Shown one piece after another: positions 14,008 through 43,230 of a stretch of DNA of 64,000 bases. Numbering within the stretch: position 1 is the stretch's first letter; each line of letters opens with the position of its first letter. The stretch is from Dillenia suffruticosa (Eukaryota; Streptophyta; Magnoliopsida; Dilleniales; Dilleniaceae). Location of the stretch: contig JAVTVX010000013.1 of the NCBI GenBank assembly GCA_033439265.1, forward strand, positions 6,164,501 through 6,228,500. Direction: 5' to 3'. Under the pieces are notes generated by a model, which was not told where the DNA came from, made no database searches, and worked only from the letters and a program-made list of their open reading frames with translations. A program made the translations under genes and the position numbers.

Positions 14008-14769
14008 AGTATTGTACGGAAATAACTCAATAAAAGAAATTTTAAATGACCTTTGATATAAAAAAATTTCATATATAACTCTCATTTGTCGTAGGTTAAA
14101 TCCGTAACAGGCTATACCGCAAATTGAACCAGCAAAATAGCCACGTGGCAACATCACGTGTATCGCCTCTCCAAGATGCAACACGGCGACGCTCCTCCAC
14201 CCGCGACACTATGCTCCTCCACCCGTGGCGCTGCGCTCTCCCTCTCTCCCCCAGTGGCGCATCGCTCCTCTCTCCCTCCCCCCATGGCGCTACGCTCTCC
14301 TTCTCCCCTGCAGCACTGAGCTCCTCTCTCTCTCCCCCAGCGGCTCAACGGTCTCCCTCTCTCCCCTCCTACGGCGCTGCGCTCCTCTATCTTTCTCTCC
14401 AGCCGCGGCACTCCTCCTCCGTCGCGGCACTCCTCTTTCTCCCTCCCTCCCTCCCCCACGGCACTCTTCTCTCTCCCTCCCCCTCTCGCAACACTCATCC
14501 CTCTCCCATTGCCACGAGAGCCCTCTCCCTCCCTCTCCCACTGTTGCGAGAGCCTCACTCTCCCTCCCTCCCCCACTGCCGTCCATAGCCGCGGGAGCCC
14601 TCTCCCTCCCTCCCCACCACTACGGGAGTCGCGGGGGTACGTCGCGTCTTCAATTTGCGACATAGTCAGTCGTGTATTCAACACCCGATAAAATGGGGAT
14701 TATCTATGGAATTTTTTTGGATCGAAGGTCGTTTAAAAAAAATTATTAGATTAATTCCGTACAAAGCTC
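14008..14769. mobile_element. Non-autonomous Mutator-like element with a C-rich core (copy 1)
   Basis: Imperfect terminal inverted repeats of about 80 bp are visible. The left end is AGTATTGTACGGAAATAACT and the right end, reverse-complemented, reads AGCTTTGTACGGAATTAATC. Both continue through TTTTAAATGACCTTTGAT / TTTTAAACGACCTTCGAT. A 10-bp direct repeat TTATATTTAG flanks it (13998-14007 and 14770-14779), a length typical of Mutator-like elements. The interior (14160-14640) is almost pure C/T with CTCCCTCTCTCCC and GCGGCAC/GCGACA motifs, unlike the AT-rich neighbourhood. No transposase is present. It is related to the element at 21450-22301. Confidence 0.8.
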
Positions 14770-18267: not shown

Positions 18268-21200
18268 TTTTTTTTTTTTCTTTTTCTCGGTGGAAAGAAG
18301 AAGGGACAACCCAACTAGCAAAGCCAACCCATCCCAGGGGGCAAACACAAGGAGAACTTTCCGTTCTGCCCCAAGACTTTGGCTCCCTCAGCATCTTCCT
18401 TCAGAAGGCTGTCAAGAGCCGGAGGATGATGATTGAGCTCTTTGAACCTTTGAGTTAGGGAGTGGCCTAAGGCGGCCATCTGATCCACACAACGATTTCC
18501 TTCTCTGAGAGGGTGGAGAACAGCAACCACATCCACATGATGCATGAGGATTCCGCATTCCGATCATCAGACTGAGAGCATAATCCTGGGCCACGCCCTT
18601 TCCAGCACTTCAGCTACAACCAAGGAATCCACCTCCTGCATTCCGATCATCAAGCTCCCACTCCTGGCCATCTCGAGGCCCTCTCTCACTCCCCACAACT
18701 CTGCCATGAACACGGATGAAGACAACTCTGCCATGAACACGGATGAACCTCTGATGTTAACCAAGAAGCCAGCCATCCATTCTCCTCTGCTGTTCCTCAT
18801 GACACGCCCCTGCAACCACCTGACCACTTAGTCTGTCCACTGAACTGTTTGTGTTTAGCTTGAAGATTTCTCACGGAGGCAACCAACCTAACCTTTGGTC
18901 ACACTTTTACTCTCCTCCCTCTTTCTGGCGAAAGAGAACTGCAAAGCAACATTAGGAGCCCATCTAGCAATCTGCAAGGGGGGAGAGATAACCTTTTGAT
19001 GAACAACCTTGCATCTACTCTTCCAGATGATCCATATGGTGGCCAGAAACTTGCTTTTATCCAAGCGGGGAAGACCAACTGCATGCCTCTTACTTCCTGC
19101 CTTGATCCAGTCGACTGCATCCCTTCTCCAGAACTCTGGACAGTTGTCCACCGCTGGGAAGACTAAACTCCACACTTCCCTGGCCACCTGGCAGTCTCTC
19201 AGGCAGTGGACGATGGATTCCTTGACTCCTCTGCAGTAAGGGCAATAAGCTTCAGGAGTAAAATTCCTCCTTCTCTCAGCATTGGTCATGATCTTATTAC
19301 AAGTCACCAACCAAAGAAAGACTAATTCTTTCGGGGTAGTCCACTCTCCAAATCCAACTTTAATCCAAGTCGTTGTTGGTGCCCCGTGGTTCATTTCCTG
19401 GATGTCACTATAAGCTGACGTAGCTGAAAAAGAACCATCCGCTTTACCTTTCCAGCAAAAGTCATCAGAACAGGCTTCTTCCTCTGGGATGAGAACACCC
19501 TCGATCTCAGCCACCTTGATACTGGGGAGAAAATTCTCTAATTCCTCAGACATCCAATGCCTGTTGGTATCAATGAAATGCTCCACCTTTCAGTCTAACT
19601 CCTCACCATTGACAGCTGACAAAGCATGATGGATTAGAGGATCTTTTCCCACCCAAGTATCAGTCCAAAAATTTACCTTTTTGCCATTATCTACCTTCCA
19701 TTTCATCCCTGTTTTAATGCAATCTCTGCACTTCATAATCCCTCTCCAAATATTAGATGAATTTGGCAATCTTGCAGCCCATAAGGTCCTGCCCCTTAGA
19801 TACTTGCACCTCAAAACTTCACACCACAAAGTCTTATCTCCTTTCATCAACTTCCAACCCAACTTGGTCATAAGCACCATATTGTTGTCTCTCATTCTTC
19901 TGAGACCTAAGCCTCCTTCCCTCTTGGGTCTGTAGACTTTCTCGCACCCCACAAGGTGAACATTCTTGTTCTCTCCAGACCAACCTCAGAGGAAATCCCT
20001 GTTGAGATCATCCAGCTCGCTGCAAATACTCTCTGGCAGCCAAGCAGCCTGTATCGTGCAGGTAGGGATGACAGCTGTGCCAGACTAGATGAGCACTATC
20101 CTTCCTGCAGTACTTAGGAGTTTGGCCTTCCAACCCTTCAGTCTATCTTGAACATTCTCCACAATCTGCATGTAAGTGTTCCTGTCCACCTTCTCGTGGA
20201 TAATGAGAATACTCAGGTACTCACCTAGATCATTAGAGTGGGAGAATTTGCTCGCTGCCGCTAGGGAAGACTTCAGAGACCACAGGCCACTGGGGGAAAT
20301 CCGGAGCTTGGATTTGAGGGGGTTAACGTTGAGGACAACCTCAGCAAAGGAAGCCCTTAACATTCCATAATGTGGCTCAGGATCAAGTGATTAGCTTATA
20401 TGAAGAGGAGGAGATCATCGGCAAAAAACAGGTGTGATATAGGAGGGGCTTTTCTGCACACTCTAACAGGAGACCAAGCCCCTTTCCTCACCCTATCTTG
20501 ATTCATATACGAGAACCTTTCCATGATGATGATGAACAAATAGGGGGAGAGAGGATCTCCCTGCCTAAGCCCCTTGCCAACTTTGAAGGAGGGAAGAACT
20601 TCTCCGCTCCAAATGAGGGAGATGCTGCCACAAGAGACTGCAACCACTATGAGCTTGACTAGGGATAAGGGCAGGTTGAAATCTAGAAGAACTTGACTCA
20701 GATAGCTCCAACTCACACTATCACAAGCCTTCCTTGAATCCACCTTCAGCACCACGTGATTTTTAATGCTCTTGGACCTCTTGATGGAGTGGATAACCTC
20801 CTGGGTAACGACAATATTATCTGAAGTTCCCCTCACAGGAAGAAAGCTACTTTCGTGATTGCCAACCAGCCGTTGAATAATGGGCCGGAGTCTTTGGACC
20901 AACACTTTTGAGAGGACTTTATAGGAGTTTAACAAACTGATTGGTTTGAAATCCACCATAGTTTCAAGGTTGTCTTGCTTTGGGATCAGAACCATGAAAG
21001 CATTGGCAAGATCTGGACAGAAAAAAGCCATCTCTAAGGGCTTCATTGACAAAAGAATATAGGGAATCCTTCACAGTCCCCCACAGCTTTTGCAGAAAAA
21101 AAGCTTGAAGGCCATGTGGATCGGGGGGGCTTTTAAGCCCTTCATAGAGAAGAGGGCAGACTTCACCTCCTCTTCACCGGCCGACTTAGTTAAATTCACC

Positions 21201-21449: not shown

Positions 21450-22301
21450 AGACATGTACGTATATATACCAAAAAAAAAAAATTAAAACAGTCTCCAATG
21501 GAAATTAATTCCGTTTCTAACCCATGTATGTCGCAGGTTTAACCTGTAACATTCTGTGTCACATTTTGAACCCACGACATGGGTTCCCCCCGCCTCCCGC
21601 AGCGCTCCTCCAACCGCGGCTTTTTCTCTTCTTCCCCCGCCTGCGACTCTCTCTCTCTATCTCCTCTGCCACCGCCCACAGCACTCCTCGCCCCCTCCCT
21701 CCCCCACCTGTGCCTCTCTCTCTCCCTCCCTCCCTCCCCTCTCCCTCCCCCGCCCGCGGCTCTCCTCTCTCCCTCCCTCCCCCGCCCGCGGAGCTCTCTC
21801 TCCCTCCCCCGCACACGGCTCTCTTTCTCTATCTCCCCTCCCTCCCTCCCCAAGCTCGTGGCGGTCCTCCCTCTCTCTCCCCCTCGACAATCCTCCCCCC
21901 TGCGCGACTCCCGCAGTAGTCCTCCCTCCCTCCCTCCCCCCGCGACAGTCCTCTTTCCCCCCGCAGCACTCATCTCTCTCTCTACCCCCACAGCACTCCT
22001 CCCCCTCCGCGACGGAGTGCCGCGGGAGCGAGAGGAGCGCCACGAGCGGGGAATGTCCGGTTTTGGAGACGTGAAACCCTATGTCGCGTCTTGCATCTTG
22101 AAGACATGACTCACTGTGCCCAATGCCATGGCGACACAACACTATGTCGCAGGTTCAACCTGCAACTCACTATGTCGCAGGTTCAACCCACGACATAGCT
22201 TGTCACAAATTCTACTCGCAACAAATGGAGGTCACTTTCGGAATTAGTTTCCCTCATAGGTCATTTAAAAAAAAATTTTTTGTTCAAATCTGTACATGTC
22301 T
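21450..22301. mobile_element. Non-autonomous Mutator-like element with a C-rich core (copy 2)
   Basis: The left end AGACATGTACGTATATATAC and the right end (reverse complement AGACATGTACAGATTTGAAC) form inverted repeats that extend through TTAAAACAGTCTCC / TTAAATGACCTATG and GAAATTAATTCCG / GAAACTAATTCCG. A near-perfect 9-bp direct repeat (GGAAGAGAG at 21441-21449, AGAAGAGAG at 22305-22313) flanks it. The core (21580-22010) is nearly pure C/T with CCCTCCCTCCC runs and GCGGCTCTC motifs. GTCGCAGGTTCAACCTG motifs repeat near both ends. It is related to the copy at 14008-14769 in ends, core style and internal motif order. It sits in the leader of the broken chromomethylase copy. Confidence 0.78.
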
Positions 22302-22798: not shown

Positions 22799-25700
22799 TC
22801 ATGAATCAAAGTCTTCTAATGTTGGAGAAGACACACTCTCAATGTTGGGGAACTTCGCAGGTAAAGTAAACACTGGTTTGTCATTTGTAGAACCTCGACA
22901 AGCTAAGGCTAATGCATATCCCAAGGCTCGGGCCACCGGAATTGCAACAGCATTCCCTACTTGTATGTACCTGTTAAAACACCCCAAAAGATTAGCTAAC
23001 TGAAGCTTGAGATATAGATTGGCCCCAGAAATGAGCATACGTGTTAAATGGTGCCAACATTTGGGACTGCTTAGGGATATTTTGACCATGAGAGCACATG
23101 AATCATCCAAAAGACAAATCAAACTGAGAATGTTATGCCTAAGACAATTTTACCTTTCCTTGATAGGCCCGCTAAGCCTATAATAGTCTGGAAATCCTTG
23201 TAGTCTAGCATTTTCACGAACTGTAAGAACTCTATCTTGTCGCGGATGTAGAATAACCTTTTAGAAAACAAAATTTGGGGTTATGAACTTTTAATACAGT
23301 GTTAATTCATAAAGCAGAGATCATGGTATAAACCTGGTTGTGGGGCTCTGCCCTTGTAACCACAGTTGGGACTGTCTCATCCCACCATAAGCGACCAAAT
23401 GGCCTGTGGGGCAAAAATTACAACTTGGCAAATAATTAAGTAGAAGGAAAATCTTTAAAAGAATTGCGATAAACACTCCTTACTTTGATGAAGACCCTCC
23501 AACAAAAGTCATCGCATAGTCAGGGACCTAAAATACAAGAAAAGTATAAGGCCCAAAAAAATACTAGTTCAAATAGGATATAAATTATCCTTAGTGTGAT
23601 CATTAAAAAGATTTACCAGAGGCTTTCCAGAAGGCAACATTTCCCTCTCCACGGTTGTATCCCACTCCACTTTGTTATCTGGGCGAACTTTCACCCCTGG
23701 CAAATCTCTGAAGTTTGCACCCTGTCATGTCAAAGGAAAGGAGACAGAAGATTTACAAGGTGCTGTCTTACGGCTGAGATTACATGTCATCATATTTTGA
23801 TGCAAGGTAAATAAAGGAACCTTGTTTTTAGGGATTCGGCAAACTCTTGCATAGTCATCATCGTTCAACCTCAGAGGGCGATGATCATAGATCATTCTTT
23901 TTGATGCTTCCATGTCTGAACATGAAAATAAAGTTTCTACAAAACTCAAGGAAATTATACTTGTAATTAATACATGACCAGCAAATTTTCCAGAAGCTAT
24001 TATCTCCTAACGTTATATGTTCAGCAGATCTCTTAGATGGTATATTGAGTTTATTATGCGTGAAAGAGTTGCAATTGATTGCATGCAAAGCTTACTTTCA
24101 TGATTTTAAGTGGGACAAGAAACAGCTTAAGTAAACTAAACCATATACGAAATGTATTAAACTAATTATCCAAAATACCAAAAATTTAATTTATTACATA
24201 GAAGTAGCATTTTCCAGAACCTGTTTTTCCTGACACCACATTCTGCAGGCATATTGTCAGCTTAGATTACATAAAAAGGCAGTGTCACGCAATGTTAGGT
24301 TCCACTATTTTGGATGACATTAAATGCCTAAGCAACTAGCCATATACAGAATAAACTGAACTTGTTATCCAAAATAAGAAAATTAAATTCGCTATACATG
24401 TATGCATGAAATCACTGTATGATCAAATATCAGGCTAGGGTACAAAAGAAGTATCAGATGCATGATATAAACACACATTACTAAGGTTAAAAGAGTATTA
24501 CCATTCCTTCCTAGTCTTATGAAACGTTGAAAGTCAGTCTTAGGAACACTCCCATATGGCATTTCATCTCTTTCTTCATCATTCTTAACCTACATGTGAC
24601 AATAAGCGAATGAGATGTCAAAGAAAACAATACTAGCAGCAACAGGAAACAACAAAGGATAAATAAATGTTGATTGCATACAGATGGCAGATCTGAGATA
24701 GCATCCTCAAGAAAAAGCTTCTTCTCCAATTGCACCTCATGGCCTTCATTATATGCCACAGTGTTTATCTACATTTAGGACATGCTTTTAATATCAAATT
24801 TACAAATTAAATATATACATTACTAATTACAATATGCATACCTCAAATTCTCGAGGAATTACTCCCCGATTGACAACATCATGCGTAGGCAACGGATATT
24901 GTGGCAAACTCTGAAAATTAGATCATATTAATTAACAAATTGCAAAATGTTATTGCCTCCTATTAAAGAAAAAGAAATGGAGGAAAATACCTCTGAAGGG
25001 CGGGCCCCCCAAACAAATACTCTCATGCGGAACTGAGGGAGCCCAAATGATCCAGCAGCCAACATACCCATCCTAACCTGATAGTTCATTTTCACAAGCC
25101 GTCCTAGAGCATATCTTCCAAGAAATCCATCTGAAAACTTAACCAAGTCTACCACATTTTCCATCAACACAAACCTTGGCTTCAAATACTCAACAACATC
25201 CATATAAACAAGTAGTTGTTTGTTCTTGGGATCACCAAGTGGGTTCTTTTTGTCTCTAAAACGATTGAACCCACTGATGCCTTGACAAGGAGGTCCCCCG
25301 CAAACAACATCAACATCACCCTGTGTGAGCAACAAACAATCATATTAGATTAGGTTGACCACTAATATAAACTAACTAGAAAAGAAAGAGATATAACTTA
25401 CTGGCAAGGGCAAAATCTTTTGTTTGAATCCATTCACAACAAATTCCTTAATACGCTTGGAACAATTGCTAATAAAATTTAAAGAGTACATGTCAGACTT
25501 GGCAAAATCTTAGCAAAATCTAAAAACAAGGACAATAACTGTGTACCTTAAACCAGAAATTGGCTCCCAAGTGTCCTCACTCTCTCCATAGCCCTTCCAA
25601 CGGATCTAATTTACAAGCAAAGCAAAGCATCTATAGTTAGACATAAGTGAATATTTCTATATATGACTTAGAACAAAAATCATAGAACTTGTAAAAACGC

Positions 25701-28700
25701 CAAACAAAAAAGAAAAAAAAATACAGTTGCAGCATTGTGAATTCAATCCTAATGTACTGTTTTATTTGTTTGCAACTAAGCAATAATCAAATTATTAGCA
25801 AACTCTTGAAAGATCACACATCCATGCCTTAACGAGGCCCAAAAAAGAGCAATAAAAGAAATGATACAAGGGTCTAGTTATTAACTTAGGAAGCCTAAAA
25901 TTTATGTCAATTAAAGAATCAAATGCATTTATGAATGCAATATGCATCAAAGAGATGGTGGACTAAAAAAATTCAATACAAGTTTATTTCCAAAAGCAAT
26001 TATAGAAAGTATATTTGGTTAGCAAAACCAAGGAGAAAAATTAAACTTATAATTACATTTTTGTGGTTACCTTAAAGTAGAGACCACGTTGTTGATTCTC
26101 ATTTGGGTCACCATAACAAATTCCAAGGATATGATCAACTTCAAACACCTCATCACTCTCTTCATCATCATCACTATCTCCTTCGTCAGCCTCATCGTCT
26201 CCATCATCTTCAGGGAACTCATAACATTGCTCATTTGTACTACAATTACTAATTAATGAAAATGAGGCACAAAGCTTTTCCCACTCCTTCAACAAGCACA
26301 AATAATCATCAACAGATTCATTCCGTACCTGAAAATTGATGGAAACTAAATTAACTAATGCCCTTTTATGATGGAAACTAAATTAACTAAAACAGATTAC
26401 CTTTGTCTCTGGATGATTTAACTCTAAGCAATCACAAGCATGCTTATTGATATCTACAGCCCATTTCTACATAAGTTAATAAAAGGTCATTCACATCATC
26501 CAAAAAATAGTATAAAAAAATACAAATTTAGACAAAAGAATTCATGTAATAGGAAATTACAAAATACTTACAGTAACCATATTCAAGCCGGCCATGTTAC
26601 CCCCGAGGCACAAGCCAGTTGACATTGCTCCACAACCAGCATATAAATCAAGTACAGCAACCTCTGTTTTAGGAGAATGCATTGTAGAGCTTTCACACTC
26701 ACTATTTGATTCATCAATTTGGCTTGATATGGTGGAGCATGACTCACTACCAGCCCGAGCATTCTCTAAAATTATTATTTAAATGGAAAAGGATAAAATT
26801 AGAGTGAAACTTGCTACTGCAAAATATGTAACATGCAAAAGTAAAATGAATCTAAAGTAGTGGTCAAAGCAATAAACCTGGAGCGACAATAAATGTAGAA
26901 TACGGCAACAAATACAACATATCACAGTAATAGTCACATTCAGGAATTAAAGCCATTTTTGCACTCACATCCACCTGTAGATTCAAAAAGTTAGAGAAAT
27001 GTGTATTAACCATCCATTGGGCACAATAAATGATAGAAATAAAAATTAAAACATACAATACAAGGAGCTTACATTTGGGGAAATTCTGACAATTTGTATC
27101 TTTTCAACTAAAGAATCCAATGGATTGTCATTCTTTATTTCTGAAAAGAAAACACGTCTATCTTCGATTGGAGTGACACTATCTTGTATGACCTATTACA
27201 GAAGCACAAGTACACAAAAATAATACCACAACAAATTAATGTCAAGAAAACAATAAATGAATGAAAGTATCAACTTTTGTTCTTATTACCGTATCCACGA
27301 GCCTGTAATACCATTGTGCAGTAAAGTATGTTTCTCCATCAATAGCCTCAAAGAATTCAACAATCTTACAAATATAATAAGGTTTGCCTTCTTCAGCCTA
27401 GACCACATATTTATAAACTCACATCAATCATCATATGCAATATACATGTTATATATACATAAATATATAAAATCTGCAATTCAATTTGACTAACACCTAC
27501 ATAAACAGCTAGAATTGACTTCATTAAGCCGCTTTTTGTATTTTCTCACACAGGTCGGTTAAGTCACACTAAATTAACAATAGTATGGGAAAAAGCCAAG
27601 AAGAAAATCACATATCATGTAACTAAATTAAGGTAGAGACTCAAACCACAAAACTTTACTTAAAGTCATATCAATGTTGAGCAACCAAAAAAGCAACTTC
27701 AAATTAAAATTACTGTCAAATGGGTACAATAATGAAACGTTAATAATATTTGCAAAAGAAAGTCTTCTTTAATAATATAAACTTGACAAAACCTATCTCT
27801 GATAATTTTGAAAGTAAATTACTTGTACAGATGTCAATACATCATAAATCAAAAATTATTAAGTTACATTTCAAGTTAAATTCACGCAGCAATGTGTGGG
27901 TACTCCCTTGATACAAACAATGTTAACAAGAAAATTCAACCAACATTACCAAGAATGTCAGAGCAGCTACAAGGTCAACAATACCTAACAGAAACAAAAG
28001 GTACCATCTAAATTGAAATACATTCTTCAACAACATTTTTTTCCTAGATTCTTGTAACTGTATGCCAAGGTTTTGAATTATTAAGAAATAAGTTCTTTCT
28101 TTTGGCCAAGCCATATTAACACCAACGGACTAACAGTAGCAAGAGCAGTAATAAACAACTCACCTGGACATGAGCATCATCCTCTAGGTTGAACACATTG
28201 CAGCCATCGATTTCTGCCCGAGTATAATGCCTCCTGGCTTGAATTACCCCATCATCTTCATCACTGAACCAAACCCACATCATCAGAAAAGATTTAGGAA
28301 AAAAGTCAACTCTGACAAGTATAATCAGCAATTAGTCCTATATAGGAAGAACGTACTGAATTGTGTATCTTAAACCAAAGTAATAAACAAAAACAATGAC
28401 CAGGGCATTAGTATTCCTAGGTACACAACCCCTTTATAGTGTGTAATAGGTCAGGTGACTTACGTGGTGGAGCTATTAGACTTGTATACTATCTTCGATT
28501 TCTGCAGAAAAAGTTCAAACCAATGAAATGGGGGCAGTAGAATAAGTACCCCCAAACTAACAAAGGATATAAATCGAATCGGTAGATCAAATCAAATCGA
28601 CTTTAGGAGCCCAAACCTTGCTCTGATATCTATCAGGCCACCTCTGTCTAGCTTCTGCCTCTGGAATTGGCTCTCCAAGAAACCGAGGTTCAATTCCATC

Positions 28701-29072
28701 ATCATCCAAGTTTTCCGCCCGCTTTTGTAGTATGTTCTTTAGCTTCTTTGAAGAAACAGAAACATTCTCATCAAAAGCTTTCTTCTTCCGTGTCCCTTGA
28801 GATGCCAAGTTCCTTGAAGCTGTCAAAGTCTTTTCTTCTGACTCGTTCTGTTCGTCTGCATCTTCAGGTGGCTCAAGCTCCTCAACAGAAGAATCACTAG
28901 CCGGGGGCTCATCTTGTACGACATTCTTTGTCCTCCGAGTTCTTTGGGTTCTTGGAGTCATCGACGGAGTCGCAGTTTCTTCGCTCAGTCCATTCTGCAA
29001 AGGTTCGTCTTCGCTTCGTTTAGGTTTTTTTGACGAAGATTTAGCAGCAGAAGCCTTTCGCTTGCTCGCCAT
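22799..29072 (-). CDS. CMT3: Chromomethylase 3-type DNA (cytosine-5) methyltransferase, 21 exons
   Basis: CMT3 methylates cytosine in CHG context at heterochromatin by binding H3K9me2 through BAH and chromo domains (nucleus). The hand-spliced CDS totals 2727 nt, 908 aa (Arabidopsis CMT3 is 839), with consistent phases. Exons: 29072-28617, 28501-28464, 28263-28164, 27397-27290, 27192-27073, 26974-26878, 26765-26572, 26466-26401, 26328-26071, 25605-25547, about 25468-25402, 25320-24991, 24910-24842, 24768-24682, 24589-24502, 23915-23821, 23721-23617, 23527-23484, 23403-23334, 23257-23154 and 22970-22799. Order: charged N-terminal tail, BAH domain (exons 3-6), motif [14 protein letters not shown] (exon 7), acidic stretch, chromodomain [20 protein letters not shown] (exons 9-11), catalytic [10 protein letters not shown] and ENVVD (exon 12), [10 protein letters not shown] and [15 protein letters not shown] at the end. 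I chose the ATG at 29072 because it gives the family start. No lesion is seen. Confidence 0.96.
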
Positions 29073-32000
29073 TTTCACGCGAGAGAGAGAAAGAGGGGTT
29101 TATCTCTCTAGAGGCGAGAGTATAGATCGTAAACTCGAAAAGTTCTTCAGATCGAAGGGAGAGAAACGGAGATTGAATACAGAGAGACAGACAGACTGAG
29201 AGAGTTAGAGAGAGCCGAGCGATGTCCCCAGCATCGAGAAAGACAGAGATCTCCGGGGAAGAGAGAGGGAGAGATGGGGCAGGACAGGAGAAATAGAAGA
29301 GGCAGAAAAGGAAAAGGACGAAGATGGAAAGGTAGAAAGAGGGAGTAGGGTTTAAGAGGTGAAAATTGAAAATTTTTGAAGAAAGGACGTGGGCGGGAAT
29401 GGAATCTTTACGTTTGGTACAGTGGAATTGATTCGCATTTGAAATCCGGAACCCTGGCCGGGAATCCTTTCGTGTCATCTTTGGGAATTTCATTACAAAA
29501 ATTAGGTTAATTATTCAAACATGTTTCCAAATTATAAGTCATCATTTCGTAAGTTTGGGGAAACGTTGTCATGATTGTTCCTTAATTGATCATGCACAAC
29601 GGGTTTTTCTTAACCCTAATTTTGGAATGTGCAGTATTAACCATGTGAATGCTTTCTAAAAATATCACGAAACAATTTATTATAATTTTATTTTCATAGG
29701 GTTTGGGAGAAGACTAGTTCATTCATTGAACTTATATTAATATCATGCTTTGACCCAAATAGAAAGAAAGTTAAGCTGATTTCAATTAAATTCTTTAATT
29801 CATTTTTTATTTTAAAAAAAAAAATTATTTGGAATTTGAAAGAAAAATATGAAATTTAATTAAATTTTATTTTAAAAAAATGAGTAAAATTCATTTTGAA
29901 ATTCTAGATTATTTTTAAAAACCGTGTATAACTTAATATATAAGTTTAAAAAGTTGATTTTTTTTATTTCACTCTTCTTAAGAATATTAACTCGCGCGAT
30001 GTTATTTTTTGGAAATTACTGAATTTTCTTTTTTTTTACCTTTTTCTCTCTCCCTTTTCTTGTTATACATTAAGAGTAAGGATTTTTGTAAATTTGACAT
30101 ACAGGGTAAAAGTAAAAATATTAAGGTAAGATATCGACATCCAGTTTGGTAGAACTTTTTTTTTTAACTTCTTTTCCCTTTATAAAGAGAAATTCTGTCA
30201 AATAAATTTTATTTTTTTTTTGAAAAATAATTTTTTTATGAAAAGAAATAGAAAAAATAATTTAAAAAAAGAAACTTTTGAGAGAAGTTTTTTCTTCTCC
30301 TTTTTGTTATACACCACTTTTTTTGGAATCATATTTTTTAATTCTATTTATATTCTCACTTGATTTATGTGAAATTTCAAATATGTTGATTCTATAAATA
30401 TCTCTCTGTCATCCCACACTTGCAAAAATGTGACATAATCTTGTATTTCTTAATTATTTATATTATATAAAAAGGATTTTATATTTATAAAAAGGATTTT
30501 ATATTTGTAAGATTGATTTTTGAATTTCTTAATTCTTTATGTAATATAAATGATTCTATATTTATAAATATTTGATTTTAATAGATTAAAAAATAATTAT
30601 TTTATTTTTATTTTTATTATTAGTATTTATACTTTTTATTTTTAATTAATCAATGGTGAGGTGAAAAAATTATACTTTATGCGTATATTCTTTATGATAA
30701 TTTTATTTAAAATAAAGTTTATAAAAAATGTTTTGTCAAATAATTTATTTATAAAGAGAAGTATAAAAATAATTTTTAAAAATAAAAATATCAAATAACT
30801 TAAATTTATTTTAAAAGAAATTAATTTTTATTTCTCTTTAAAAATAAAATGATAAAGAGAAACAAGAGTTTGCAAAATTTCTAAAAGGTCATCATAAGTT
30901 CATAGCATAATTAACATTGATTTGTAATACACAAATCTTACATTTGGTACATCATTTTGCAGCAATAAGACGGCAAAAATTTACCCTTTTTTTATTATTT
31001 TCAAGGAGTTTGGGGAATTAGTATGAGGTCTTCATTGGATGTAGATCATCTCTCTTTTGGAGAGGGATGTGGATCTTCTCCCTCTGGTGTTTCCTTTCAT
31101 CCGCCCTTTGTCATATATTTTTTAAAAAATGTTTTTTAAATATAATATTTTGACCTAAGCTGTGTCGCAATAAAGAGATACCATAAGATTATATGAAAAT
31201 AAATATTAATAGTTCTGCTATTATGGAATCTTAATATATTAGGAAAATAGTTTATTATTATTAAGAAAATTATTGTCTCCTTAGTTTTGATGATAACAAA
31301 ATCTCTTATATTATTTTAACCGATTTATTTAGTGTATACATTTTTAATTCAAAAGATAACTTTTGTTAAAAAAAAAGTCATAAAACCGGTTATAAAATCG
31401 GTCATAAAAGTAAAGTTTATTTAGTCATAGAAACAAGATTTTTTGATAATTCTTGAAAACCCAACCAGCAAGATAAGTATAGTTTGGATACTATACTTAG
31501 TCTATAATTGATCCTAGATATGCATAAAAAATCTCACAATATGAGGACAACTCGTATTCTACTATTGAGAAATTTTTTTAAATGTTAAAAAGTGATCATT
31601 TAAAAATATTTGGATAGTCATATTTTCTTATATATTGAAATATTTCAAAAATAGAAAATTATGTTTTAAAGAAAATATATGGAATTTCAATTTCAAACAT
31701 TTACAGTACAAATATCTAATGGATATGTTAGAAAAAAATCAACTTAAAATTGGATGGTTACTTATTTGTCATAGCAGAATCATTTATCAGAAAATGGTTC
31801 TCAAGGGATATTTGGCATTTGATATTTTCACCATTAGTTTTGGACTTGTGAATTTAATTATTCTATATTATGATATTATAGTTGAACAGCAAATATGATA
31901 ATTCATGATATAATTATTTCGAGATTTTAATGGAAAAGTAAATGGACGAAAGCTATTTGTTTTGAAAAAATTTAGAACTGGTACTGAATTTTTTGAGTGA

Positions 32001-33187
32001 ACTTCGAATTTTCTGAAAGAGCAATCATTTGAATATAATCAAAATAGTTTTTGAATATGACAGATGGAGGTTTAAATTTCAAAAGAAAATTATTTACCAT
32101 TAATAAATATCAAAATTTATGAAGATTTGAAATTTATTTTTCGGGATAATTGTTGAGACTGTTACAGTAATTTTGTGGGCTTTTTATTACAGTTTGTTGA
32201 GCTTCTCTGGAATAAAGCAATGCAATAATTCAGCAGGCCGATGAGTGAACAATTATGGCATAAATTCAATTAGATCTAAGTGGACAATTAGATCCGAGAT
32301 TGTTCTCATCAGAAAGGAGACAAATTTTGATATTTATAAAATATACATCATGAAGATTGTTGGACGAAACAAAGAGTTTGGTTTATAGTGGATGTAGGCA
32401 CAAAGTCAAACCACTATAAACCAAATTTGTCTCTTTATTTTTTTTAAAAAATTTTTGTTATATATTTTATAAATTAATCATAAATTCAATTAGATCTAAA
32501 TGGAGTTAGATAAAAATTTAAAAAGTCAAATTTTAGACAATCAATTCAACTTCCCCTTCTTGATTATCTTTGAAACCAATAATTATAGAAACAAAAAAGT
32601 GAGTACCGTCTAACGTATGACGAATTTTCCAAAAAAAAATCTAAAGTTTTTATTTTATTTATCCACGGTATTTTTTTAATAAATCATCGATATTCAAAAA
32701 ATATATTAAATTTAATTAAATTCATTTCGAGTATGAGTGAATTTAAATTTTTAAGGAATAAATCTCAAATTGTTTCATTCAATTATGAGTGGGAAAGGAA
32801 CATCTTAATAAACTTGACTAAAACAAAACAAATAAAAGAAAAAAAAAACAAGGAAAGTGACCTGAAGGGGCCTGGAAAACTAAAAAATCTTAAAGTCATG
32901 AGAATAAAGTTGACTGAGAAAATAAGTTGATTCAGGTCTTCGGGGTAATTTTCTCCGCAGGCGTTGGAAATTCAACCACGGCCTTTGCTGATATAACCTA
33001 GAGAATACGCATATAACACCCACAAACTGCATGCAATGAAAACTAAATAAACTCTCGGGAAAAACCTAATTTGTGTGTTTTAAAGAAAAAAAAATTGACT
33101 TTTGGGATTTTGGAATTACTTTTAATTTTGAGAGTTTAATCCGCTTTGTTAATTCCACCTAATTCTATTTAATTTTTTAAATATCAC
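29073..33187. other. AT-rich intergenic region upstream of CMT3
   Basis: 29073-29350 is GA-rich and presumably the CMT3 leader and promoter. Beyond 29500 the DNA is very AT-rich, with short direct repeats (for example AAAAGGATTTTATATTT twice at 30471-30504). No gene is supported. An 87-codon plus-strand frame at 31635-31898 has no similarity I know and lies inside a probable LTR remnant. Confidence 0.5.
31266..32470. mobile_element. Probable solo or partial LTR of a copia-like element
   Basis: The segment begins near TTGTCTCCTTAGTTTTGATG, and near its other end has TATAGTGGATGTAGGCACAA followed by AACCACTATAAACC. That motif recurs near the 3' end of many plant Ty1-copia LTRs. No pol coding is attached. 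Ends and target duplication are not clear, so the call is tentative. Confidence 0.35.
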
Positions 33188-33436
33188 TAAAAATTAAGAT
33201 TAATTATACTTTTGTCTATACTACCTTTATAGTTTAAAAATATAGATTTATCTCCTGTGACTTTTAAAAGTGTAACGAGTTGATATAATTATACAAAAGC
33301 AAAGAAAATATAATGGATGCACATAAAATATCTATTATCTCTCTCGTTAAAACTCACAAACTCTCTTCACTTTCCTTTCTCTCTCCTCCCCTCTCTTGGC
33401 ATCACCGGTCATGGCCTCCATGAAGAAGCTATGCAA

Positions 33437-33605
33437 GGTTTTTTTGATAATATACCGACCATTATTCGAATTTATATTTCGGAGGACTTGTAGTAGTCCA
33501 TTTAAGAGATTACTATTTCAACGTAATTTTTTTCATGTCCAACTCGCGAATCAAACTCGAAAACTTGATTAAGAAATCTAGTACCATATTCTACTAAACC
33601 AAAAG
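33437..33605 (-). mobile_element. SINE-like repeat, family 2, in the left arm of the foldback element
   Basis: Read on the minus strand: a tRNA-like head (TTTGGTTTAGTAGAATATGG, then TTCGAGTTTGATTCGCGAGT), a body and an A tail (T run at 33437-33444). The mirrored right arm of the foldback element lacks it, which fits a later insertion. Confidence 0.5.
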
Positions 33606-33680
33606 AGTTGTCTTCTCTCCTCTCTTCTCTCTCCCTCTTCCCCAATTCATCATCAACCTCCACCACAAAAAAAAAGCCTC

Positions 33681-33726
<46 letters not shown>

Positions 33727-34645
33727 CTCGTTCATCTTCAATCTCCAGCATATCCCAAAAAAGATAAAAAAAGAAAAGCTCTCTTTTTCTCTCTTTCTTC
33801 CCTTATTCATCTCACCCCAAAGAAAAAAAAAAACATACACACACTCTCTCTCTCCCTCTCTCTCTCTCTCTTACCCTTGGCAACCCAAAAAAAAAAAAAA
33901 AAATTCTCAATTTCTATACAAGTTCTACTTCTCTCCCCGTTCATCTTGCAATCGCCACTCATTCAATTAGATTAATTCATCTCCACCTTTGCCTTCATCA
34001 TCTTCAATTACCTTTGTTTAATTCATCTTCATGCTCCAAGAAACCAAAAAACCAAAACTCTCACTCTCTCTTTCCCCATTCACATTCATGTTTCAGCAAA
34101 CCCATAAAAATAAAAAATAAAAACACACACTCTCTCTTTTTCCCTCATTTTCAGCAAACCAAAAAAAAAAAAAAACTTAAATTAAATTTCAACGCATGCA
34201 AATTCTACATCTCTCTCCATTCATCTTACAATCACCACTTGTTCAAACGATTCATCTCCACCTTCTTCATCGTCTTTAATTGCCCATGTTCAATTCTTCT
34301 TTATGTTCCAAAAACCAGAAAAAAAAAAAAACTCACAATTTTTATTTTATGGTATGAAACTCTCGCAATTCATCTCCAACTTCTTCATCATCTTCAATTG
34401 CCTATATTCAATTCATCTTTACGTTCCAAAAACCAAAAAAAAAAAAAAACTCTCACTATCCCTCTTTCTCATTCATATTCATGTTCTGACAAATCGAGAA
34501 AAAGGAAAAACTCATTCGCTCTCTCACTTCTCCTCATGTTCCAATAAAACCAAAAAAAAATAAATAAAAACCTCTTCGTACCCAAGTTCAATATCTCTCT
34601 ATTCATCTTATTATCGCCACCATTAGACAATTCATCTCCACCTTT
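33600..34645 (+). repeat. Pyrimidine-rich imperfect repeat array
   Basis: Units containing TTCATCTCCACCTTCTTCAT, TCTTCAATTGCC, a FQKPKKK-like A tract and a CTCTCACTCTCTC block recur at about 33940, 34200, 34370 and 34600 with spacing of very roughly 120-270 bp. A pure CT microsatellite lies at 33684-33723. Long open frames across it are composition artefacts. Confidence 0.65.
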
Positions 34646-34654
34646 TACTATTAG

Positions 34655-35138
34655 TGTTGGATTTAATCACGCATGCGGAAGCGAGAATTAAATAGATCGG
34701 AATTTTTGGGATAAATACCTCGATAGGGCAGTCTCAAAAATCCACCGTGTGGCGATGTCCCTCGAACGGATCGCACGGTCGGATGGTGATCACGAGGTTA
34801 GTCGAATCACCACCACAGCATCACAACGCCGCAATCCTCATGTCCGGTGAATCGTCTGACGATGGGAGATTTTCCTACGCGAAAATCTCCATCCCTCTCT
34901 CTATTCTCTCTCTAGAGAATATGTGAAACCCTAGCCTCCATGGTTTCCTCCCATGGCTGCTCTCCACACACAAGGTAGGAATCACTTTCTCAAATTGAAT
35001 CAAGAGAATAAATTGTCATTAGGGTTAAGTTTTGGGAGTTACCCAAAACGCATGGTTAATGTTGGTAAGTAATAATGGGAGTTACCCCATTATCTCATTC
35101 TTACCAAAATGCCCCACAATGGGCATAAATAACCTACA
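34655..35138 (-). repeat. LTR (3' LTR in element orientation) of the copia element
   Basis: On the minus strand it starts TGTAGGTTATTTATGCCC and ends TTAAATCCAACA, so it has TG...CA ends. It is the left copy on the plus strand. Confidence 0.95.
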
Positions 35139-38100
35139 TCTCCCACTTGCACATTAGGGCATTTCACTTCCGTCAATCACAAGATCGCAACTCATGCGAT
35201 CTATCACATCACCCTACTGGACCTTCATACTGGATTGGGCGTCGTGCGACCGGCGAGTGCACCTGCAAGCAAAGACTTCTCGATATACCTGTTAGGATGA
35301 TCGAGTAGTCACTATTAGTATAAAAATAACTCGCTATACCCCAGACTCAATGTATTTACATCCATCGAGCCACTTTTCTCATCGAAAGTGATCCCCAATC
35401 AATTTACTCGACTATGTATTCATTATTATGTTTGAATCCCAACATGGATTAACACAATAGGTCGACCTATGAATACATGACAATGATGTAATGACTATTG
35501 GCCTTCCTTTTCCCAAACTCGAATCTATCGGTCTCAATTCAGCTGCTTTCCTAGACCTGCCCCTTAGACCTCAATTTATCTTCCGGGCCATAGGTAAACA
35601 GACTAAAGTAGCAACACTGAGCCAAAACTTTTAGAGACAGCCGAAAGTAATAAGGGCATAAGAGATCCCACCCAATGGATCTCAGGTCTCACACAGTGGG
35701 AACGGGGATCAAAATCAAACTATCGTCTCAAATAATAGCTCCCACTGTCCCATGGTCGTCTCATCACACGTGGTATGAAACACGTGCCACAGTGTTATTC
35801 CCCCATCTCTCAAAGGGCATATGTCAGATTTCTCTAACACTGTACAGGTACGGGACTCAGTCTACACATAAGACTTTACCCAGAGATCTCAGAGAGAGCA
35901 ACTCAGAGACAATATCACAAATCGCAGGTGATATCTGAGATCTCAAACTGGCTACTTACAGGCAACATGGATGTGGGTATTTCCATGTCGGTCATATCGC
36001 ATATGACCTCATCCTGAACACATATCAGGACGACTTATGTTCTAGTAGGGCTACTCTCAAAGCCTCTTACGACTAGAATCCGTCTCATCTCCGCTCACTC
36101 AGAGTCGGAGGTGGTCACTCGTGTGAGAGAGTCGACCACGCCTGCCTGACACATCTTTTAATCACAAGATCACAATATATGACAACAAATGATGCATGAA
36201 ATAAATATGTGACTCAATTCTGCATACATGTCATATATTAAAATAAGTATCTAAAATAGTATATAAGGAGAAATGTTAAAATACACTAAACCCAATGATT
36301 CCTTATCTCACAAAGGAATCTCTCACAACGGGTTTTCTGAAGAGACCAGCTCTCATGCTGAGGTGTACTTAGATTTCACAATACCCTTCTCGGTAATATC
36401 TCTCATAAAGGTCTTCGGTATTAATGTGTTTGGCTTTACTATTATACTTAGGGTCTCATTTGTTGACAGTGTCGGTCTGATTATAACAATAATCATCACT
36501 GACCTCCCACTATCTGTCACAACCTCTAAGTCTTCCAGAAAATTTCTGAAGCCAACCATTCTCATGAACTGCAATTCAGCATACTACTAGCTCAGTCTCT
36601 ATCGTAAATAGAGATATACAGATTTTCTTCTTACTGCTTTAAGAAGATAAAATCTTTTGCGTTTATTCAGATCACTACTCCCAGTCAGTATCTGAATTTT
36701 AATCACAAAACGCAAATCACCTCATCCGTAACACATGGAGAGCTCTGCAGTTCAAATGAGATATTTCGGAATCCTTTTTCACTGCTCTACAGTGATCCCT
36801 TCCAGGATTCCATTAATACCTACTCACCAGATCGACCATAAAATAAACATCTGGTCATGTATGCCTCATCGCATACATCAAATTGTATATCACACGTGTA
36901 TACCTCATCGCATACACTAGAAATGTATTTTGCACTGCAATAAGGGATTCTGCTCATCTCCCTTATTTCTTTATAAATTCTAGGGCATGTGTCAAGATTC
37001 AAGTCTTTTTATCTTTAGCGATTAGAGTATCTTTTAGGTTGTCACCGCTATTCTCGAAATGCTTAAGAATCTACCTGATGTAAAACTCTTGTTAAAGAGT
37101 CAACACCATTCTCAAGCGATCCCTATGGATCCAAAATCTAAGAATGAACTAAAACCTCATAACCATGTTACAATGGTCATTAGATACTCTCTGTTGTTCC
37201 CAGCCAACAGAATGTCATCTACATATGCGAACATGCTCATAAAGGAGTCATCGGGACGTATCAAATATATGCAATGATCCTACTCGATCATTACAAAACC
37301 ATAAGATATCACTTTCTCGTGAAATCTCAAGCGCCGCTGTCTAGATGATGGCTTAAGGTCATATGTTGATTTCGAAAATCAATAAACCTTATACACCCGA
37401 TCTACTAGAACGAACCCAAAGGGTTGCTCTATGTAGATCGCCTCATCTATACTTCCAATACAAAAGCGGTATTTACATCCTTATGATGTGACTCCTGATC
37501 CATGTTCGTGACAATCGCTGAAAGATAAACGGATCGAGATAAATTGGACTATGACTCCTCGATAGTCCACCCCTCAGTCTAAGTGTAACCCTTGGTTACT
37601 AGACGGATCCTTTACTTCTTCATCAATCCGTTAACCTTTATCTTGACTTTGAGAACCTACTTGTTCCCAATAGTTCTTCCGCCTTTAGGCAAATCAACTA
37701 GGTCCCAAACCCCGTTGATTCTCATCAACTCTTTCTTTTCATTTATGGCCTTCAATAAACGGTATTTTGCATCCTCTCGAGAGCCTCTCGGACCGTTTTA
37801 GATTTCTCATCATCCTCTAGAGTCGCAACGAGGGTCTCACCCTCAATCGAGAAAACAACGTTTAAATACGCATGCTCGATGCTCTTAGGAGGATAGAAAA
37901 ATCTTTACCTCTTGATGGATCGCTCCCACTGAGATCAAGATCCGTAGTGGATTCTTGTATCCCGCCGCTGGGCTCCCCGAGCCTCTAGGCTCATCCATCG
38001 CATAAAGGGTAGGGTCCACATTGAGGGAAATCTTTCTCAAGAAATATAGTATTACGAGACTCAATCTCGATTATAGTGCCGTTCGTATTCGCCTAGGAAC

Positions 38101-40119
38101 ACGTATTTTCTCGCGGGTCTAACTCACCGTGTGAATGCGAGAAATCGTGGCACAACCCCATAACATCAAGTGGCTAAGGTCAGGCTGCCTCCCTGTCCAA
38201 AGCTCAAATGGGGAACTGACTAATAATCAGTAGACTCGTAATACTCTTATCGAAACAGAGTCCCATGTGTAGTTTAGACGAATACTTGCGTCCTCGCTCG
38301 GTTCTTGAAAGTCTGTACTCTCAAATCTAACTGATTCTCAATCTTGCTTATAAACCTCCTCAAGCAGTCTAATGCCTCAGACTTGTGCGAGATCAGATAG
38401 ATGAACCGAAACGCACGTAAGCATCTATAATTATCTGCACAACTCCATTTCCGGCTCTCATGCTCATGAGACCATAATAAAAAGAAGGAAAACACAATAG
38501 TTAACTGCAATGGAGTCCCAGCTCTCATTGCATCGCCAAATGGTTTTCTCGTCATTTTGCCGACTAGGCAAAACTCACATACGGGTAACTCGAATTTGGT
38601 CAGCGGGTCCAATAAACCTCTCACTACTAACCGATTCATCATCTCTTACCCCATGTGTCTAAGTCTACTATGTCATTCATTTACATCATCATCTACGCAA
38701 TCAGATGTAAAGACAATAGTAGAACGAAAAGAAACCATTACAAGGAGTAGCACCCAGTGCATACATTCCATCATGGATTAAAACCAGAATTATTTAGAAA
38801 ATTATCGTATTAAAAACAAGGGAATGATTTCACGCATATCGTAGTCAATTTTAGATAAGGTACAAAATTGTAGATCCGTCGAATGCCTACAATATTGAGG
38901 ACGTCATAGCAAGTGTCGTTCCCTCAGACAACGACGAATGCTCTGTTCTTAACGTAAATCCTCCACGCTTAAGGATTCATTGGACGGATTACGCACTCCT
39001 ATCTCGAGTTACGTAAAGAAGAAGGATATTTATTTTTACTCGTCACACTCACGAGCGAAATGACCAAATTTACCTCAAACGTAACAATTTCTTTGGTCCA
39101 ATCAAATTTCTTCTTCTTGCGTTCTTGTACCTCGTTGTCGGTTTTCTCGGATGATTTTTATTACCTAGATCTCGAGTCTCGCTCGAATGCTTATGCTATT
39201 GGCTTAGCGCCGGGGAAGTCCTTACTCAACTCCTCTGAATAAGCATGACTCGAGTGTGGCCTACTCGCCTCTAGGTGCTCCTCATCGAGCTCTCAATATG
39301 TATTCACGTCAACGAAAGTACGAATACTTTCGTCAAATGTGAGATAGGATTTCACGGTTTCCCATGAATCAGGTAAAAACTGAATCACATCCAGTACCTA
39401 AATTTCATCCGAAATTTACTCGTCCGTATATATTAACTCGGTGATCATACTCGACATTTGCTTCATTGTATGATTAACCCTTTTCTTCTGCATCCTCACA
39501 TAGGAGCCGAAGAAAGCAACACTATGCTCTTATGGGACGGAGCCGTAGAGAGCAACACTATGCTCTTATGGGACGAGTCGAACTGACATGTCCATAGAAT
39601 ATGACTCGAAAAACGAGATTAAATCATTATGCATGCCACTGATAAGGATTGCCCTAACTTGACAATTCTTTTCTACCATGTACGATAGATCTCTTTATCT
39701 CGTATATCCTAAGGCGCGGTGCCCACCCTGGGACCCATCATCTCTTGCCTCAGATTCCCGTTAGATTTTGTTTTGCCTCTCGAGAATAAACTGAATCTAC
39801 TGATAAAATCACACAGATCATATCATTCAGTTTACTCTCCTTGCAAAAATTTAATACGACAGTTCTTAACGCATTAAGAAAGACATTTGTGACTTGGAGA
39901 TGCTTATTTTCACATTTTTGTACGCCCTACGAATCATCAAAACCAAAATGACTTGAGTACGACCCCAAAGCGAGCGTATGAGTCAACGGACACCATACAC
40001 CACAACTTGGAAACGCATCTTACCATTTGGATTGCGATTCGGCACACAAAAACCCACAAAAAGTTACATTTATGGATATAGGACCCCCAAAAAATTGAAA
40101 AAATTCAATTTTTAGCGAC

Positions 40120-40620
40120 TTCACGCGCCGCCCGGGGCCCACACACGCCGCCGCTCGCCGACGGTGCGATCCACGCGCCGCCACGCGCCGGCGGCGGCCT
40201 GCTGCACGCGCCAGACGCGCGGCGCACCTCACACGCGCGGCGCGCCTCACACGCGCTGCCACGCGCCTGGCGCGGCTCGGCTCACGCGCACCCAGTCGCG
40301 GCGCGCGGCGCGTGGCTCACGCGCCTTCACGCGTCGAGCCGTGTTGAGCCGCGTCTGACCGAGTCAGTCAACGGGTCAAGGTTGACCCGACTGACCCGGT
40401 CAACGGGTCAGGGTTGACCTGACTGACCGGTCAACGGGTTCTAGTTCGACCCGGTCGGGTCGGTTTGCGGGTCAGTCCGGGTCACGGTCCGACCCGATCC
40501 GCCGCCTCCCCGCTCCACGCGCCTGTGTGGCGCGTGAACTCCACGCGCCTGTGTGGCGCGTGAACTCCACGCGCCTAGCAGACGCTCCTCCTTGCGCGTG
40601 AGTGTCACGCTCCCGCGGGT
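40120..40620 (-). repeat. GC-rich, CpG-rich leader of the copia element with short repeats
   Basis: It is dense in CGCGCC motifs and contains a 26-bp tandem repeat (CTCCACGCGCCTGTGTGGCG, about 40513-40574) whose unit is partly self-complementary. GTCAACGGGTCAGGGTTGAC-type repeats lie at 40365-40440. It lies between the primer-binding site and gag, so it would be untranslated leader. Confidence 0.8.
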
Positions 40621-41179
40621 CTGGGCCGGGTCTTCTTCGCCCGACGGGTCCTGCAACGGGTTTTTCGACCCGTTTTCTGGAAAACTCGATTCCGGCTGTT
40701 CTTTCTTGCATTTTTCGACTGGAAAAAATTTGTGGGCATCCTCCAAACATTCTACACTCGATTTTTGGAGGATTCAAACCCAAAAAATGGTGGGATTCAA
40801 CCACCCCAGTCGCGGCCCTCCGCGGCCATTTGGAAATCCCAGTTTCCGGCACCCAAGTCACACAATAAAATATATAAAACCATAGATCTAGATGCAATGA
40901 ACTCATTTATATTATTTTCATGCATCGATCCGCCCTCTAAAGCCATAGATCTAGGTTTTTTATGTCCGTACGGTCGCAAACTTCGACCGGACATTTCATG
41001 GCCCAAACATGCTCGGAAAATTAAATAAAAAATATATTTGTAATCCCTGGGCCATGGGTATTCTTGCAGTGTTCTCGGATTCACGAAACTCATCCGTGAT
41101 CCGGACCCCAAAATTTTAAAAACCCCAAAAATAATTCCGAAAATTATTAAATTAAATCCAACCACTGCTCTGATACCAA

Positions 41180-41663
41180 TGTTGGATTTAATCACGCATG
41201 CGGAAGCGAGAATTAAATAGATCAGAATTTTTGGGATAAATACCTCGATAGGGCAGTCTCCAAAATCTACCGTGTCGCGATGTCCCTCGAACGGATCGCA
41301 CGGTCGGATGGTGATCACGAGATTAGTCGAATCACCACCACAGCATCACAACGCCGCAATCCTCATGTCCGGTGAATCGTCTGACGATGGGAGATTTTCC
41401 TACGCGAAAATCTCCATCCCTCTCTCTATTCTCTCTCTAGAGAATATGTGAAACCCTAGCCTCCATGGTTTCCTCCCATGGCTGCTCTCCACACACAAGG
41501 TAGGAATCACTTTCTCAAATTGAATCAAGAGAATAAATTGCCATTAGGGTTAAGTTTTGGGAGTTACCCAAAACGCATGGTTAATGTTGGTAAGTAATAA
41601 TGGGAGTTACCCCATTATCTCATTCTTACCAAAATGCCCCACAATGGGCATAAATAACCTATA
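41180..41663 (-). repeat. LTR (5' LTR in element orientation) of the copia element
   Basis: It matches 34655-35138 along its whole length with about seven substitutions and no gap that I can see. The initiator Met tRNA primer-binding site lies directly beside it at 41165-41179. Confidence 0.95.
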
Positions 41664-43230
41664 ATTAGAAAACACGGTTTCAGCGTCGGAAAAATATCCA
41701 TCAGTAATAGCGACGTATTTGTAACAGTTTAACGTCGGAATCAATACCGAGAGATTAGCAATGGAAATATTTTTGTCGCTAAACCCTTAAAAAATAAAAA
41801 AAAAATTTAAAATTATCAACTACGGATTGCCGACGGAATTTTTTATGATAGAAATATTCCGTCGCTAACTTTCATTGGTGAATTGGTGAAGGAAATATAT
41901 ATATATATATATATATGTACAGCCTTTAACAACGGATTAACGACGGAAAATTAGGAACGGATTACCGACGGAAAATTAACGACAGATTACTGACAGGTTA
42001 GCGTCGGATTTTTTTATTTTTTATTTTTGATTTTTGATTTTTGATTTTTTGATTTTCAATTTTTCAATTTTTAAATTTTATTTAATAATTCTTATTATTT
42101 TTATTTTATTTTGCAAAGAATAATATTATTTTATTTTTTCAAAATTTTTATTATTTTATTTTAAGTAATAATAAAATTATTTTTTTATTTTACAATTAAT
42201 TATAATTTTATATTATTTTAATATTATTAAGAAATAAGAAATAAAGATAATAAGTAAAAAATATATATATAATTAGATAACTTGTTGGTCTAGTGACTAA
42301 AGTGTTCTCATATCGTCCTTTGCGTGTGCTGTGCATTTTATTTTCTTTTTTCATAACTCAAATCAGCGACGGACTCTAGTCCGTTGCTGTTTTTTTTTTT
42401 CAGTTTTTTTTTTTTTGTTTTTTCTCTCAGTTTTTTGTTTTCGGTTTCAGCAATGTAGTTTTTTCCGTCACTAATCTGACACTGATATTTGCGATGGAAA
42501 AAAAATCTATCGCTGAATTTAGCGGGTTCACTTTTTACGACGGATTTAGTAACAGAAAAAATCCGTCACTGATACCTTTCAACAACGAAAAATGAACTTT
42601 TCAACGGATTTTTTCGTCGTTGAAAGTACGTTTTTAATAGTGTTTGTCTTCATCATCTTCAAATGCCTCTATTCATTAGATAGTTTTAGGATTAGGATCC
42701 ATTGTTGGAGAGAATGATGTTTAAGATAGTTTTAGGGTTTGGGTGAAGTATAATAGAGAGAGAGAGAGAGAGAGGAAATGTTGGGGAGAGAGAGTGAGAT
42801 TTTTTTTTTTTTTCCTTTTGGATATGTTAGAGGTTGAAAATAACAGGGAAGAAGGAGTGTAAGAGCTTTTTTTTTTTTTTTTAGTTTGCAGGAGGTTGAA
42901 GATGAATTGGGGAACAGGGAGAGAGAAGAAGAGAGAGTGAGAGAGAGAGAGAGAGTTTTTTTTTTGTGTATCCAAGGTTGAAGATGAACGGAAGAAGAGA
43001 GAAAGAGAGGTTGAAGATGAATGCGGATAATTTTGATAAAAAAAATTAATTTTAAACATAAACTCTTCATTTTTTGCACATCTCTCGATCTCCGTAAAAT
43101 CTGACCATTTACATTACTTTCCACTTTTTTGTATTACAGGGGATAAATAGATATTTTTGAATTATATGAGTAGTATAGGACTTTTAGTAAAATCACGGGG
43201 GAACAAAGTGTATTTAATCCCTAAAAATTA

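Follow-up and report, generated by a model that had tools for sequence, protein, structure and literature searches.

Three nested transposons, very probably inserted one after another, in Dillenia suffruticosa

Between positions 33187 and 43230 of the window, the 64,000-nucleotide stretch of Dillenia suffruticosa DNA analysed here, three pairs of short direct repeats lie one inside the other, which raises the question of what elements they bracket and in what order these arrived. The window is part of contig C13 of a 596-Mb genome in 37 contigs. We regard the cluster, with high confidence, as three nested transposons that inserted successively: first a non-autonomous Mutator-like element (MULE), next a CACTA element and last an LTR element, probably of copia type. 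In the proposed history, the non-autonomous MULE (about 2 kb without its inserts) would have entered low-copy DNA and duplicated 9 (or 10) bp there; a non-autonomous CACTA element of 983 bp would have entered the MULE, duplicating TTT; and an LTR retroelement of about 7 kb, probably carrying decayed copia-type genes, would have entered the CACTA element on the minus strand, nine bases inside its end, duplicating ATTAG. The three target repeats had been described in the sequence-only reading and all are present where it placed them, with small corrections to coordinates and lengths. The order it proposed is supported as well: every inner element, flanked by a duplication of its own, sits within the next one out, and copies related to the two outer layers occur without the inner ones. 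Other genome copies sharing the proposed ends were looked for; relatives exist, and the claim was not refuted.

The MULE layer spans about 33197–43220, inserts included. Its left arm occupies 33197–34645 (plus strand), the last three bases being the TTT target of the CACTA element, and its right arm 42646–43220 (plus strand), whose end has relatives elsewhere in the genome. The arms are bracketed by an identical stretch, CTAAAAATTA, at 33187–33196 and 43221–43230. The earlier reading gave this repeat as 9 bp; it is present and identity extends over 10 bp, which leaves room for a one-base shift in the position of a 9-bp duplication. The 10-mer is found on the plus strand of the window at these two places only, and a 9/9 flank match was reached by a fraction of 0.0008 of 5000 random right ends (end offsets of up to 2 allowed). 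The two ends form inverted repeats with 89 of 123 aligned positions identical (local score 46; the best of 300 shuffles scored 30), and similar ends are seen in the relatives. The left end lacks about 23 bases that are present in the right end and in relatives. The long inverted repeat proposed earlier is modest, and much of the remaining inverted similarity is CT/GA-rich and A/T-run sequence. Mutator-like elements have terminal inverted repeats, a 9-bp target duplication and diverged copies. The outer layer resembles non-autonomous MULEs in all three; it differs from them in its left terminal repeat, shorter by the 23 or so bases, and in an interior of CT-rich repeats. None of seven open frames from the arms gave a Pfam match above the cut-off; the best of the sub-threshold ones had E 0.0023, against a family whose function is not known. 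Elsewhere in the genome, among 150 matches scored out of 737 candidates, PF10551 matches lie in open frames of up to 870 aa. Such matches may include host genes derived from Mutator-like elements.

Genome searches, window included, gave 37 matches for the right MULE end and 14 for the left. In 15 of 16 MULE regions (L073 is the exception), the left-end probe sets the end 20–24 bases inside the place set by the right-end probe. Among 14 further loci, three of which are the same places again, the offset is seen for at least one end in six, is absent or nearly so in five, and three are uninformative. The offset would fit a deletion in the left MULE end of the window. Target duplications were compared in six relatives with both ends. 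Four show flanking 9-bp matches of at least 7/9, namely 9/9 (with one end placed by hand), 8/9, 7/9 and 7/9, values that random right ends reach in 0.3%, 2.7%, 8.4% and 6.5% of trials, respectively. L043 and L074 showed no convincing duplication, with 2/9 and 5/9 at the predicted ends; their best offsets give 4/9 and 6/9, reached by 95% and 23% of random trials.

Host DNA at the outer site is single copy or nearly so. A genome search with the DNA left of the MULE gave no other match, and the DNA on the right has one further match (77%, contig 35). Across the joined flanks, the contig 35 segment aligns over 168 columns (67% identity, E 7.6e-7; weak near the junction), with the left flank ending at position 1327 of that segment and the right flank starting at 1333. 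Each flank alone scores close to the shuffle level (51 against 51 and 52 against 51, about the 99% level of 1000 shuffles), and the weight of the comparison therefore lies in the flanks being adjacent and colinear; joined, they score 107, where the highest of 500 joins made with a shuffled left flank was 104. The contig 35 segment seems, weakly, to run through the outer site without the MULE insertion. A cytosine methylase match lies at a distance of about 20 kb on contig 35 and of about 18 kb in the window. The flank match and a second methylase exon at a similar distance suggest that G000:C35:19779091-19799624 may be a duplicated segment.

Two other explanations of the outer layer have to be set against these data. 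The sequence-only reading called it a foldback element, that is, a separate kind of element whose inverted arms are long and rich in repeats. The label came from the CT-rich repeats on the left and the GA-rich repeats on the right, which do yield many inverted matches; most of those listed are of low complexity, however, and the arms are unequal (1449 against 575 bases). We rejected the foldback kind on both grounds and consider it very unlikely, as the ends, the duplication length and the relatives agree with Mutator-like elements. It might also be argued that there is no outer transposon at all and that the 9–10-bp bracket and the weak terminal similarity arose by chance in AT-rich DNA near low-complexity repeats. 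The 9-mer TAAAAATTA does occur six times on the plus strand of the window, and the MULE ends are only 72% alike. Yet both ends have genome relatives, some of them opposed and flanked by a 9-bp duplication, the host DNA outside is low copy and the contig 35 segment seems to lack the layer, so that chance is scarcely credible as an explanation. The outer layer is better read as a putative non-autonomous MULE.

The middle layer, a CACTA element bracketed by TTT according to the earlier reading, was confirmed. It has an outer span of 34646–42642 and consists of two parts (34646–34654 and 41669–42642, both plus strand), together 983 bp. TTT is found at 34643–34645 and again at 42643–42645, and the length of the left copy agrees with seven of seven aligned MULE relatives. 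The nine bases of the left end are TACTATTAG, and the closing ATTAG doubles as the left duplication of the LTR element; the right end, inverted, is CACTATTAA. The inverted CACTA ends are present, as CACTATTA on the right and as TACTATTA with one base changed on the left. The changed base is the first (34646), which is T here and C in most relatives found; changed end bases also occur in the relatives L019, L021, L022 and L025. The larger part contains subterminal CGACGGA-type repeats and has genome relatives with paired ends. CACTA (En/Spm-type) elements have CACTA ends, a 3-bp duplication and subterminal repeats. The element is like non-autonomous members of this type in all of these features, and differs in its changed first base and in having one end split by the LTR element.

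Among the 19 other family loci, 11 combine paired ends with 3-bp duplications that are the same on both sides, at lengths of 888–1044 bp (the shorter pair being taken where two end pairs fit). L019, L021 and L022 have a common duplication and common flanks and look like one copied insertion, which leaves nine independent cases. In the remaining eight loci no end pair with a matching duplication was found. Two further places were noted, L081 with a duplication (CTC) and L082 without one. The CACTA site itself is seen uninterrupted in relatives of the MULE: of the 16 regions seven were aligned there, and all seven continue through it without a CACTA element, and the MULE family therefore exists without this insertion. 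All seven are one base shorter than the joined arms at this point, as expected from a join that retained the CACTA element's mutated first base. L066, L067, L075 and L078 have at least 88 bases aligned on both sides of the site. L063 and L072 end 22–30 bases past it and L077 begins 18 bases before it. Repeated units occur inside the MULE, so these three alignments may be to a different unit. The CACTA element contains no open frame longer than 75 aa lying wholly inside it (frames of at least 50 aa were considered). Matches to PF02992 (Transposase_21) elsewhere in the genome, among 150 matches scored out of 2257 candidates, lie in open frames of up to 863 aa. It is plausible that the third insertion ended the mobility of the CACTA element, as the earlier reading had supposed, because the LTR element parts the nine end bases from the subterminal repeats. 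The T at its first position might be disabling as well.

The LTR element is located at 34655–41663 on the minus strand. The previously described ATTAG repeat and 484-bp LTRs, nine bases inside the CACTA end, were all found, with the second copy of ATTAG at 41664–41668. The 3′ LTR (34655–35138) and the 5′ LTR (41180–41663) are each 484 bp and enclose a decayed interior (35139–41179); all three are on the minus strand. The second LTR (41180–41663) ends in TA rather than CA. Read on the minus strand, the primer-binding-like site TGGTATCAGAGC, which we take to match initiator tRNA-Met, directly adjoins the 5′ LTR on its inner side, and the purine tract AAGTGGGAGA lies just before the 3′ LTR. The LTRs, the 5-bp duplication, the primer-binding site and the purine tract agree with copia membership. 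The two LTRs align without gaps and are 98.6% identical, with seven differences (five transitions and two transversions; K2P 0.0146). Substitution rates of 1.3e-8 or 7e-9 per site per year give an age of about 0.56 or 1.04 million years, respectively. A second copy on contig 29 (the L003/L007 pair) has CTTAT on both sides, as judged by eye; its LTRs match those of the window over the first 322 bases only. A GC-rich stretch at about 40120–40600, with repeated CACGCGCC-like units, lies between the 5′ LTR and the decayed gene pieces.

The interior of the LTR element has ceased to be a gene set. Between 35139 and 39950 the longest open frame on the minus strand is 123 aa, within the range of 200 shuffles (mean 91, maximum 155). 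Twelve pieces of LTR-element frames, ten from the window (nine plus one) and two from L087, were searched against Pfam and none matched above the cut-off. One piece gave two sub-threshold matches and the other eleven gave nothing. The gag_pre-integrs match (E 0.019) reached 15.2 bits, below the cut-off of 28.4, and RVT_2 was not detected by Pfam in the interior pieces searched. The copia label of the sequence-only reading is likely, given the sub-threshold gag-pre-integrase match and the usual anatomy of such elements, and the family is probably non-autonomous and copia-derived. Two other copies align with the interior over 2873 and 2954 bases (95.1% and 95.9% identity). In these 3-kb stretches their longest minus-strand frames are 76 and 79 aa, and that of the corresponding stretch here is 76 aa.

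Could an ordinary autonomous copia element have landed here and its genes decayed afterwards? The many stops in every frame would agree with this. The LTRs, however, at 98.6% identity, are too young for such decay, and the two copies at 95–96% have no longer frames in 3 kb. In these copies, 187 of 202 and 196 of 208 stop triplets, counted over all three minus-strand frames, are conserved as stops, about as identity predicts; they therefore show common descent of the broken sequence, no more. The 123-aa piece was compared with the genome as well, and all of the 150 matches scored out of 5472 candidates, window included, lie in frames of at most 174 aa. Decay after landing was rejected on the youth of the LTRs and the equally decayed other copies, and we regard it as highly improbable. 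Among the same 150 matches there was no close copy that shares the LTRs and has a long open pol frame, whereas RVT_2 (PF07727) matches, 150 of them scored out of 15561 candidates, lie in open frames of up to 1395 aa elsewhere in the genome. The simplest reading would be that the genes were lost first and that the LTR family then spread with the enzymes of other elements. In a more specific version, which we hold to be doubtful, the copia-derived family would be large, its genes would already have been uniformly decayed when it spread recently, and it would have no surviving coding partner close in sequence, being a parasite of another copia lineage. If true, this would make a useful example of helpers shared between retroelement lineages. 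All three layers were most likely moved by proteins of other copies, since no transposase or polymerase domain rose above the cut-off in the frames searched from the outer and inner layers and the frames of the middle layer do not exceed 75 aa. The genome matches to PF10551, PF02992 and PF07727 are candidate helpers.

For Dasheng of rice and SNRE of soybean, non-autonomous LTR retroelements, spread with the enzymes of other elements has been suggested (PMC3701649). As far as that account goes, the likeness lies in the LTRs and in young copies that carry no working genes, and the difference in the interior, which here looks like a decayed, in part inferred, copia-type gene set. Chromosome 3B of wheat holds 30,199 nested insertions in up to 8 layers (PMC4290129). 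The insertions within insertions of grass genomes, to the extent described there, are of the same nature; here there are three layers only, in a smaller genome (596 Mb). Such nesting is routine in plants and this cluster is ordinary. What it offers is a clear three-step insertion history near a DNA methyltransferase gene, with a datable marker in the LTR divergence of about 1.5%.

The cytosine-5 DNA methylase exon (PF00145, E 4.6e-19; PDB 4fsx, E 5.6e-52) is found at 24931–25344 and 28587–29099 on the minus strand. The gene is presumably a chromomethylase, whose N-terminal exon would be near 29.07 kb; a Pfam search gave no support for this putative exon. If the chromomethylase assignment holds, the gene would belong to the silencing machinery, with the nested cluster about 4.1 kb upstream of its start. 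LINE-type reverse transcriptase pieces (RVT_1 E 4.4e-22, zf-RVT E 1.1e-11) are located at 18888–21070, also on the minus strand, the same as the methylase gene. The stretches 14100–14699 and 21521–22154 have long open frames on both strands, with Ser/Pro/Leu- or Arg/Gly/Glu-rich repeats, and are probably low-complexity DNA. A PC-esterase (Pmr5/Cas1p) exon is found at 56790–57644 on the plus strand (E 4.6e-69).
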